Below are positions 60,511 through 62,640 of a DNA stretch of 64,000 nucleotides, in pieces. The notes under the pieces are model-generated. The model was not told the origin of the DNA and ran no database searches. It worked only from the letters and a program-made list of their open reading frames with translations. The stretch's first letter is position 1. Every line of letters starts with the position of its first letter. This stretch comes from Pseudomonas sp. BN411 (GTDB lineage: Bacteria; Pseudomonadota; Gammaproteobacteria; Pseudomonadales; Pseudomonadaceae): positions 1 to 64,000 of the forward strand of contig NZ_SSOM01000026.1 of assembly GCF_029871235.1 (NCBI RefSeq). Direction: 5' to 3'. Both the position numbers and the translations under genes were made by a program.

Positions 60511-61248
60511 TCAGGCGCTTTGCGCCATCGGAAGGATCGCTTCGGCCGCGGCGACTTCACCTATGACCAGAATGGCCGGGCTCTTGAGTTCGAACGCCCT
60601 GGCATCCGTTTGCATGCAGGCAAGGGTGCTGCGGCACTCCCGTTGATGGGGCAGGGAAGCGTTCTCGATCATCGCCACGGGCATGGCGCCGGTCATGCCG
60701 CCAGCCAGCAGTCCTTCCCTGATATCCGCCAGTTTTGCGACCCCCATGTAAACCACCAGGGTGGTGCCCGATTGCGCCAGGGCACCCCAGTTGAGGCTGC
60801 TGTCGTCCTGGGTGTGGGCAGTGACCAGGGTCACGCCACGGCTGATGCCGCGCAGGGTGAGGGGAATACCGCAGTTGGTGGCTCCGGCCAGGCCCGCGGT
60901 GATGCCATTGACCAACTCACTTTCGATGCCGCGCTCGGCGAGCCACTCGGCCTCTTCGCCGCCGCGACCGAAAATGCACGGATCGCCGCCTTTCAGACGC
61001 ACCACGCACTTGCCCTGGCGCGCATAGCGCAACATCAGGCGATGAATGAATTCCTGGGGTGTCGAGCGACAGCCACCGCGCTTGCCGACGCGGACCACCC
61101 GAGCAGTGGGGGAGTGCTCGAGCACAGATGGATTGACCAGGTCGTCGATCATGACCACATCCGCCTGATTCAAGGCCTTTACCGCCTTGAGGGTGAGGAG
61201 CTCAGGGTCGCCAGGGCCCGCACCTACCAGCCAGACTTTGCCGTTCAT
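60511..61248 (-). CDS. cobA: Uroporphyrinogen-III C-methyltransferase
   Basis: 245 residues. SAM-dependent; makes precorrin-2, the precursor of sirohaem and cobalamin. N-terminal VWLVGAGPGDPELLTLKA, VRLKGGDPCIFGRGGEE and ITAGLAGATNCGIPLT are family signatures. Sirohaem is the cofactor of assimilatory nitrite reductase, which explains the usual nir-cobA neighbourhood. ATG 61248 after GGGAGA. Confidence 0.96.
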   Translation of the reverse strand: MNGKVWLVGAGPGDPELLTLKAVKALNQADVVMIDDLVNPSVLEHSPTARVVRVGKRGGCRSTPQEFIHRLMLRYARQGKCVVRLKGGDPCIFGRGGEEAEWLAERGIESELVNGITAGLAGATNCGIPLTLRGISRGVTLVTAHTQDDSSLNWGALAQSGTTLVVYMGVAKLADIREGLLAGGMTGAMPVAMIENASLPHQRECRSTLACMQTDARAFELKSPAILVIGEVAAAEAILPMAQSA

Positions 61249-61285: not shown

Positions 61286-62386
61286 TCAGGTCCAGGCGAG
61301 CACGTCGTTGGAAGCCAGTTCGATCTGCCAGTCATGCAGGGGGCACGCCTCGTGGCCCTCGGCTGCGTGACCGGCATGGGGGAGGTCGCCAGCGCAGAAC
61401 ATCTCGATTCCGGCGATCTTGAGTCGGGTGCCCGTGCGCGCCCCCTGGTAACGGGCGAAACCGAGCATGGCCAGGTGATTGGCACAGACCTTGGCCTGCT
61501 CCATCAGCGGCGCTACCAGGCCATAGGAAACACCGCGATGGTTGGCGCATTCACCGATGGCATAGATGCGCGGATCGTAGGTCTGCAGGGTGTCGTCGAC
61601 CAGGATGCCGTGCTTGCAGGGCAGACCCGCCCGTTCGGCGAGTTCTGTATTGGGCGTGATACCGGCCGCCATCACCACCAGGTCGGCAGTGATGATTTCG
61701 CCGCCCGCCAGTTGTACCGCGCATACCTGGCCACCCCCGTTGTCGATCAACTCTTCAGTGGCAGTGCCCAGGCGGAATCGGATGCCCCGGGCCTGCAATG
61801 CGCGCAGCAGCTTGTCGCCGGCCGGTTGGTCGAGTTGCTTCTCCAGCAGCCAGTCGGCCAGGTGCACCACGGTTACGTCCATGCCGCGTTGCTTGAGGCC
61901 ATTGGCGGCTTCCAGACCGAGCAGGCCGCCTCCTATCACCACGGCGTGGCTGTGGGTGCGGGCGGTTTCAATCATGGCGCGCGCGCCGGCGATATCGCGG
62001 TAGCCGATCACGCCTTGCAGCCGATTGCCGGGGATGGATACGCGGCTCGGCGTGGAGCCGGTGGCGATCACCAGGCGGTCGTAATCGGCGCAGGTGCCGT
62101 TTTCGGCGATCACCTGGCGGCGCTGGCGATCGATTTTCACCACCTTGCGGCCCAGCAAGAGTTCAATTCCGTTATCCGCGTACCACGCCAGGTCATTGAG
62201 GATGATCTCCTCGAAGGACTGTTCGCCCGCTAGCACCGGGGAGAGCAGGGTGCGGTTGTAGTTCGGATGGGGTTCGGCGCCGAACACCGTGATCTGGTAT
62301 CGCTCCGGCGCGAGCTTCAGCAGCTCTTCGAGGGTACGCACTCCGGCCATGCCGTTTCCGATCACCACCAGCTTGGATGTCTTCAT
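61286..62386 (-). CDS. Orphan NirB-type NADH/FAD module, probably a deleted nitrite reductase
   Basis: 366 residues. FAD motif GNGMAG (10-15), NAD motif GGGLLG (152-157) and a late AIGECA FAD segment. To about residue 335 it reads like the N-terminal flavin domain of NirB (about 850 residues). The BFD-type cluster and sirohaem domains are missing. The tail CPLHDWQIELASND (348-361) instead resembles the second half of a Rieske-type NirD ligand motif. Only 37 bp separate the stop from cobA, where nirB, nirD and nitrate reductase stand in P. aeruginosa. Could be a deletion remnant, or an active stand-alone reductase. Confidence 0.75.
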   Translation of the reverse strand: MKTSKLVVIGNGMAGVRTLEELLKLAPERYQITVFGAEPHPNYNRTLLSPVLAGEQSFEEIILNDLAWYADNGIELLLGRKVVKIDRQRRQVIAENGTCADYDRLVIATGSTPSRVSIPGNRLQGVIGYRDIAGARAMIETARTHSHAVVIGGGLLGLEAANGLKQRGMDVTVVHLADWLLEKQLDQPAGDKLLRALQARGIRFRLGTATEELIDNGGGQVCAVQLAGGEIITADLVVMAAGITPNTELAERAGLPCKHGILVDDTLQTYDPRIYAIGECANHRGVSYGLVAPLMEQAKVCANHLAMLGFARYQGARTGTRLKIAGIEMFCAGDLPHAGHAAEGHEACPLHDWQIELASNDVLAWT

Positions 62387-62419
62387 GCCAGGACACTCCT
62401 GCATAAACGTCGAGCAAAC

Positions 62420-62453
62420 AAAAAAGGCGTCCCGCTGTTGCCAGCAGGACGCC
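62420..62453 (-). terminator. Leader terminator (attenuator) of the NirB-like gene
   Basis: On the minus strand GGCGTCC (62453-62447) pairs with GGACGCC (62432-62426), an inner GCTG-GCAA-CAGC extends it, and six T's follow. It ends 34 bp before the gene, so it must be read through for expression. Confidence 0.9.
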
Positions 62454-62463
62454 TTTGTCCAAG

Positions 62464-62504
62464 TCCCGTTCGACCGGGAAAGTGCCGTCTCGTCGTTGAG
62501 GCGG
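62464..62504 (-). ncRNA. Dual hairpin resembling an ANTAR (NasT/NasR) target
   Basis: Minus strand, 5' to 3': hairpin 1 CCGCCTC-AACGAC-GAGACGG (one mismatch; loop has the A1/G4 pattern of ANTAR sites) at 62504-62485, then hairpin 2 TCCCG-GTCGAA-CGGGA at 62479-62464 (six-base loop with G4 but G at position 1). They sit just 5' of the terminator, the order found in nitrate-responsive antitermination leaders. Confidence 0.7.
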
Positions 62505-62533
62505 GCGCTTTTTGTAGATTGTCGAATGGGTTA

Positions 62534-62551
62534 TTGCAGGTGCCGTGCCAA
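62534..62551 (-). promoter_or_regulatory. Sigma-54 (RpoN) promoter
   Basis: Minus strand TTGGCACGGCACCTGCAA: GG and GC elements exactly 10 bases apart, one mismatch to YTGGCACG-N4-TTGCW. Transcription would start about 62522, just upstream of the dual hairpin. Implies NtrC-type activation under nitrogen limitation. Confidence 0.8.
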
Positions 62552-62640
62552 CCCTTGCATGCCTTGAATCACGTGGTCCCGGGTGTTGACTCCCGGGTCG
62601 CCCCGCACCTTCCTGGGGCGGGCTGCATTGAACTGGTGCG

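Follow-up and report, generated by a model that had tools for sequence, protein, structure and literature searches.

The P11 RNA of Pseudomonas as a probable NasT-controlled nitrate switch in front of a shortened operon for a flavoprotein and cobA

The leader of the nirBD-PA1779-cobA operon of Pseudomonas aeruginosa was reportedly described by Romeo et al. in 2012. An excerpt of PMC8092218, citing Romeo 2012, places this operon under the control of RpoN, NtrC and NasT, and Romeo et al. 2012 is likewise the source given for its leader in an excerpt of PMC7261876. The RNA targets of ANTAR proteins are, according to the available part of PMC3369931, hairpins with a six-base loop in which position 1 is A and position 4 is G (A1/G4), the second hairpin (P2) overlapping a terminator. 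For P. aeruginosa PA14, the accessible portion of PMC12080996 presents P11 as a regulator of this nitrogen assimilation operon and as an RNA sensed by Caenorhabditis elegans, and its main text, when searched for 'antiterminat', 'leader' and 'attenuat', returned none of them; the inheritance results failed to replicate according to an excerpt of PMC11942167.

This paper describes a leader in the window, i.e., the whole 64,000-nucleotide stretch of Pseudomonas sp. BN411 DNA that was analysed, which resembles that of the P. aeruginosa nirBD-PA1779-cobA operon in gene neighbourhood and in its candidate regulators. The operon behind it differs from that of P. aeruginosa in having lost nirD, nasA and all of nirB but the flavoprotein end, so that only two genes follow the leader, that for the flavoprotein and cobA. 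Like the dual-hairpin leaders of EutV, AmiR and NasR, it has two A1/G4 hexaloops, the second of which overlaps a terminator; unlike them, P11 and, by its fold, the nirB leader of the same genome have a third hairpin in between, mostly of the A1/G4 type. The kind of leader is already known from P. aeruginosa nirBD-PA1779-cobA; its third A1/G4 hairpin is less familiar, as are the regulon and the hollowed operon. A literature search returned no three-hairpin ANTAR leader in Pseudomonas, although a link between P11 and ANTAR proteins, or the third hairpin, may yet be in print; among the matches for P11 with NasT in Pseudomonas, the 'Nast' in the available part of PMC8155505 is an author's name, and PMC4334518 concerns S. 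aureus. Judged from its sequence, the P11 leader is very probably a working nitrate/nitrite attenuator controlled by NasT, transcribed under NtrC and sigma-54 and serving the flavoprotein gene and cobA.

Architecture and folding of the P11 leader

A search of the window against Rfam (cmscan, gathering scores) gave a single match, P11 (RF00625), at 62426-62562 on the minus strand, with 94.3 bits against a gathering score of 70, an E-value of 4.6e-19, and model positions 1-139 covered, i.e., a full-length match. Rfam describes this family as an sRNA, whereas the RNA in the window has the anatomy of a cis-acting ANTAR leader. An earlier note, made from the letters alone, had read a sigma-54 promoter, two hairpins with six-base loops and a terminator 34 bp before the gene from this stretch of the minus strand, and had recommended a search with the ANTAR covariance model. 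All of these elements are present in the sequence; no Rfam ANTAR model matched, the covariance match being that to P11. The order on the minus strand is NtrC-like site, sigma-54 box, three hairpins, terminator, flavoprotein gene and cobA, with the likely gene start at 62386, 34 bp behind the terminator:

62625..62639, minus strand: NtrC-like site GCACC-AGTTC-AATGC, 2 mismatches to GCACC-N5-GGTGC
62535..62550, minus strand: sigma-54 promoter TGGCACGGCACCTGCA, TGGCAC-GGCACC-TGCA, GG-N10-GC, from the sequence
62426..62562, minus strand: Rfam P11 RNA (RF00625), 94.3 bits, gathering score 70
62480..62510, minus strand: hairpin P1, core CUC-AACGAC-GAG (62500-62489), A1/G4 hexaloop, by fold
62464..62479, minus strand: middle hairpin M, UCCCG-GUCGAA-CGGGA, with G1 here, by fold
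62447..62460, minus strand: hairpin P2, GGAC-AAAGGC-GUCC, A1/G4 hexaloop, by fold without the 3' arm
62420..62456, minus strand: intrinsic terminator, 15-bp stem, 4-base loop and U run, by fold
61286..62386, minus strand: gene for a NirB-like short flavoprotein, 366 aa if translated from the ATG that follows AGGAG and 372 aa if from the one at 62404
60511..61248, minus strand: cobA, uroporphyrinogen-III C-methyltransferase (sirohaem synthesis), TIGR01469 302 bits, cut-off 185

The open reading frames past cobA are presumably oprF, sigX and cmpX, with a phosphatase/kinase gene upstream, an order known from the PA1774-PA1782 region of P. aeruginosa.

The promoter follows the sigma-54 consensus GG-N10-GC, and its box, TTGGCAC...CTGCA, recurs in all 17 P11 loci of the genus. 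The NtrC consensus is GCACC-N5-GGTGC. The degenerate NtrC-like site, a putative activator site, lies 89 bases upstream of the promoter's TGG. The best NtrC-like site falls at -88/-89 in 10 of the 17 genus loci; in other genera it falls at -99 to -101 at 13 of 17 loci, these 17 being the ones with a promoter among 20 taken (none was found in three); a script that ranked the window's own sites put a different one first, at -69 with 1 mismatch.

The first loop, AACGAC, fits the A1/G4 rule, as had been noted before (CUC-AACGAC-GAG at 62500-62489). The second hairpin of the earlier note, M, exists as well, but its loop GUCGAA breaks A1, and a third hairpin, GGAC-AAAGGC-GUCC, probably the second of the ANTAR pair, had been overlooked. 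P1 and P2 are both hexaloop stem-loops with A1 and G4, and it is P2 (62460-62447) that overlaps the 5' arm of the terminator (62456-62420). A strict descriptor, consisting of a sigma-54 box, an A1/G4 hairpin and another A1/G4 hairpin within a terminator, matched once in the window and not at all in 30 simulated 64-kb sequences whose dinucleotide frequencies were those of the window.

For the 103-nt leader the predicted folding energy is -46.7 kcal/mol (z -6.0), which none of 200 shuffles equalled, and for the terminator by itself -29 kcal/mol (z -7.5). An RNA that ends at GUCC (62447) is predicted to form P1-M-P2, with the three six-base loops AACGAC, GUCGAA and AAAGGC, and with the 3' arm included the 15-bp terminator displaces P2; the structure prediction advised in the earlier note has accordingly returned two alternative states, P1-M-P2 or terminator. 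The folds without the 3' arm barely beat their shuffles (z -1.35, equalled by 19 of 200; z -0.72, equalled by 42 of 200). M as the hairpin that overlaps the terminator was rejected by the fold. Covariation was determined in an alignment of 40 hand-picked leaders, the window's and 39 of 71 different ones, in which 10 of 12 base pairs in the long helix of P1 display two-sided changes and the whole-structure score amounts to 0.240, as compared with 0.108 when shuffled and 0.037-0.094 with slid partners. M is nearly invariant in this alignment and P2 entirely so, and P2 therefore carries no covariation information.

The ANTAR pair could in principle consist of P1 and M, as in the earlier note, with P2 as mere base of the terminator. 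By their coordinates the loops of P1 and M are 23 bases apart, like the P1 and P2 loops of four other leaders (22-27), whereas the P1-P2 spacing is 41 bases in P11 and 73 in the nirB leader; moreover, M has an A1/G4 hexaloop in 156 of 172 leaders, or 61 of 71 once near copies are removed. However, M has G1 in the window, there is no hexaloop at its place in six of the 172 leaders (one of them a locus cut off), and it lies clear of the terminator. The P2 core with loop AAAGGC, similar to the P2 loops found elsewhere in the same genome, occurs in 66 of the 67 loci derived from Rfam (at least two genomes being counted twice), the exception being L098 with GGACAAAGGUGUCC. It is these loci that can test P2, and not those found by pattern, because the search pattern includes the P2 core. 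A P1-M pair thus appears unlikely, and P1 and P2 are taken as the pair below. Positions 5 and 6 of the M loop are A in 161 and 142 of 166, so that a purely structural role of M is possible. The 172-leader set includes some genomes repeatedly, and 14 further leaders had been dropped from it; among the 12 of these that were shown, eight had P1 loops AAUG.. or AAAG.. and one an insertion, so that the uniformity of P1 is overstated in this count.

Distribution, regulators and related leaders

P11 scored above cut-off in 17 of the 18 genomes of the genus, including all 13 with the short operon, and, in a sample of the family, in 197 of 298 genomes. An ANTAR protein is encoded in 17 of the 18, which are the same 17 that carry P11, and in each of these P11 directly precedes the operon. 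The remaining genome, G004, has neither ANTAR protein nor P11, gave no match below E 0.0038 to the leader model R1 (described below) and no NirB match above 158 bits, and its nitrate reductase matches are not close (best 33% identity). Nitrate assimilation appears to have been lost from G004 as a whole.

These distributions bear on the notion that P11 is chiefly a trans-acting small RNA, for which the terminator makes the 3' end and the downstream genes are incidental. Rfam indeed classes P11 as an sRNA gene, and the available part of PMC12080996 treats PA14 P11 as an sRNA sensed by C. elegans in addition to an operon regulator. The conserved parts of P11 are, however, the parts of an ANTAR leader, the RNA stands straight before the operon in 17 of 17 genus loci, and the sole genome without ANTAR proteins is also without P11, all of which makes a mainly trans-acting P11 quite improbable. 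Since the product of attenuation can also work in trans, this reading and that of an attenuator are compatible. The PA14 RNA is equated here with RF00625 by name and operon rather than by sequence comparison. Its match to maco-1 is said to comprise 17 nt.

The antitermination leader under NtrC and NasT that the earlier note had proposed finds its candidate regulators in the genome, where the absence of nasT or ntrC had been named as a ground for refutation, and the hairpins and terminator fit this reading. NtrC (798 bits) and RpoN (516 bits) both exceed their cut-offs, and the genome therefore combines a GG-N10-GC box with rpoN and ntrC, as expected of a sigma-54/NtrC promoter. Two ANTAR proteins exceed the Pfam cut-off (C82:71488 and C53:33434); in both, a receiver domain precedes the ANTAR domain and the gene adjoins that of an NMT1_2 protein, which is the build of NasT beside NasS; the names nasT and nasS follow from build and place, and NCBIfam at E 1e-20 named neither. 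One nasS-nasT pair, which answers the search for nasT that had been recommended, shares the contig of P11 and is located approximately 9 kb upstream of it, and the second is on contig C53 before nrtA-like (NMT1_2), presumed nrtB (assigned by place alone) and nrtC-type (TIGR01184) genes; either paralogue may be the acting NasT. Median dN/dS is 0.097 for nasS (12 of 13 sequences) and 0.059 for nasT (13 sequences). Two ANTAR proteins occur in 9 of the 18 genus genomes. The C53 region (C53:31500-38800; L028 6500-13800) comprises the second nasS-nasT pair with a leader of its own, followed by nrtA-, nrtB-, nrtC- and porin-like genes, of which the nrtA and porin-like genes are both preceded by a sigma-54 box with an ANTAR-type leader; the porin-like gene gives a weak Alginate_exp match.

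In total, eight ANTAR-type leaders were detected in the genome, before nitrate-assimilation genes with the porin-like gene among them. A descriptor scan over 101 kb of the genome chosen around nitrate and sirohaem genes placed leaders at P11 and before nasS, a NarK-type nitrate transporter gene, nrtA, the porin-like gene and nirB (C55), along with one match, in L031, that is without a proper sigma-54 box; the strict descriptor gave six matches in these loci. The whole genome was searched with model R1, which spans 46 positions and was made from 21 leaders (five own, the others from relatives). Five of its seven matches (E 8.8e-11 to 1.2e-5) are leaders on which it had been trained, those of P11, nasS, the transporter, nrtA and the porin, and therefore show only that nothing else in the 6.37 Mb scores alike. 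The two new matches are a leader before a gene for a NasA-CysJ fusion (E 0.0043), with a P2 stem that is imperfect by eye, and one on C54 (E 0.089), which is probably due to chance; the former recurs in 12 of 13 loci scanned (L256-L268). The leader before the second nasS was read by eye, and its P2 loop has G at position 1. The nirB leader on C55 is conserved in relatives, with a middle hairpin loop that holds A1 and G4 in 12 rows (11 genomes, G014 appearing twice; the fold of one row draws the loop differently) and varies at its other positions. On contig C55 (L029 10350-11080), nirB and the NasA-CysJ gene are divergent, each with a sigma-54 box and an ANTAR-type leader.

The operon behind the leader and its replacement genes

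The gene behind the leader had been taken for a stub of nirB. It matches TIGR02374 with 386 bits against a cut-off of 578 and over positions 1-332 of 794, short of NirB, and among Pfam families (E 0.001) it matches only Pyr_redox (Pyr_redox_2), with no Rubredoxin_C, Fer2_BFD or NIR_SIR. Nevertheless, 13 of the 17 P11 loci in the genus have an intact gene for the 372-aa flavoprotein, always ending alike (...AWT or ...TWT), and a median dN/dS of 0.086 indicates purifying selection (13 genus sequences; the C-terminal part is looser, 0.178). With nirBD encoded elsewhere, the reading as a stub is not supported. The other four loci have longer forms (two near-identical) followed by nasA; counted from the IGNGMAG stretch these have 424 or 440 residues as compared with 361 in the short form, and the one that was scanned has Rubredoxin_C and no Fer2_BFD. 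The longer form beside nasA may be a NADH-oxidising flavoprotein of the NasC/NasB type, partnered with NasA. In trees made by a quick method the 13 short forms constitute one clade with support 100, on a stem 0.35-0.37 long and beside the longer forms of the genus; the four outgroup rows of the first tree were probably read in the wrong frame, and a repeat with one correct outgroup row left the 13-row clade unchanged. In the reading favoured here, the short flavoprotein descends from the NADH-oxidising front end of NirB.

The second gene, cobA, has a median dN/dS of 0.088 in the same 13 genomes, in all of which both genes are open. A second gene for the same step (SUMT), probably of the CysG type, is present on C19, so that the P11-driven cobA looks like an inducible extra.

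The enzymes whose genes are missing from this operon have, as far as gene content tells, been replaced elsewhere in the genome rather than simply lost. A NasA-CysJ fusion of 1423 aa, i.e., a nitrate reductase with its own flavodoxin, FAD and NAD(P) domains, is present near full length in exactly the 13 genomes with the short operon (identity 65% in G002, 83-100% in the rest), and an operon-type nasA in exactly the other four P11 genomes. Of the 18 genomes, 16 encode a full NirB away from the P11 operon, and in G009 its gene is divided between two reading frames. The NirB encoded on C55 shares only 39% identity with the flavoprotein over 311 residues and stands on a very long branch in the tree, so it belongs to another NirB lineage and is not the moved original; a simple relocation of the operon's nirB was rejected on both grounds. 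The nirB frame appears broken in L190 (Stutzerimonas azotifigens) and is in two parts in G009:C1:4975040-4977420, by either sequencing error or decay.

Alternatively, as the earlier note had considered, the cassette may persist as a relic that became irrelevant when nirBD and nasA left the operon. The window's operon does lack nasA and nirD as well as that half of nirB which encodes the sirohaem part, the flavoprotein is without the Rubredoxin_C of the longer form and its clade has a long stem (0.35-0.37), and A1 has been lost from the M loop in the window. Against this, P11 is above cut-off in 13 of 13 short-operon genomes, both genes are open in all 13, and their median dN/dS values are 0.086 and 0.088; the short operon is conserved, and nirBD and NasA-CysJ are found elsewhere behind ANTAR-type leaders of their own. 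A switch that is intact in relatives after the enzymes were replaced elsewhere seems not to be a leftover, and a relic is highly improbable; the reading of the genes as pseudogenes was rejected on dN/dS, open frames and conservation. Of the two options that had been given, the better one is that the flavoprotein gene and cobA are what the cassette controls today.

Across the family, the gene orders indicate that the operon has shrunk repeatedly, down to cobA alone. Among 20 family loci picked by hand to span genera, 16 have P11-nirB-nirD-nasA-cobA (nirD being inferred from spacing, as the nirD query matched none), three have a short flavoprotein, nasA and cobA, and one (L081) has cobA alone. 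Of at least 119 loci found by pattern, 50 are full, 20 short with nasA, three flavoprotein with cobA and one cobA alone among the matches listed, and 45 of the 119 listed end too early to be classified; the three with flavoprotein and cobA comprise two from the genus and L159, whose flavoprotein ends differently. The short-plus-nasA type involves at least five changes on starred branches of the trees, so that nirB has probably been cut back repeatedly. Behind P11, cobA is present in 37 of 37 loci compared and, among the matches listed, in 41 of the 42 pattern loci that extend far enough to tell, two sets that share some genomes. The exception is L169 (P. cichorii ICMP 3353), in which P11, a short flavoprotein gene and nasA are followed by oprF (by eye); cobA is therefore dispensable to the arrangement, and the proposition that it is always kept was rejected. 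L159 (Pseudomonas sp. MRCP1333) has its short flavoprotein with cobA and without nasA apparently independently, with another C-terminus and a long branch. In L081 (G080) and L148 (Pseudomonas peli), P11 stands straight before cobA with no flavoprotein or nasA gene in between.

Proposed switch and its meaning

In the mechanism that we infer, shortage of fixed nitrogen would lead NtrC and sigma-54 RNA polymerase to initiate near 62525. When nitrate and nitrite are absent, NasS would hold NasT, the terminator at 62456-62420 would form, and a short RNA, P11, would be released. When either is present, free NasT dimers would bind the hexaloop hairpins P1 and P2; the terminator could not form with P2 bound, because P2 shares bases with its 5' arm, and polymerase would continue into the flavoprotein gene and cobA. 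The cassette is probably kept for extra sirohaem, which would be supplied to the nitrite reductase encoded elsewhere. More broadly, and put forward tentatively, P11, published as the small RNA through which C. elegans is said to learn avoidance of P. aeruginosa, may be the terminated product of a NasT-gated three-hairpin leader, and this leader a portable nitrate switch, mostly for cobA, that outlasts the departure of every nitrate and nitrite reductase gene from the operon.

On this account a curated 'sRNA' family becomes an attenuator that can be read mechanistically, one genome offers eight candidate leaders of an ANTAR regulon, and the family provides a natural series of ever shorter operons, all of which retain the switch and nearly all of them cobA too. 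If true, the abundance of P11 would report a cell that is 'nitrogen-starved, no nitrate', and if P. aeruginosa P11 follows NasT-dependent termination, the disputed dependence of worm avoidance on growth conditions would become testable via nitrate and ammonium.
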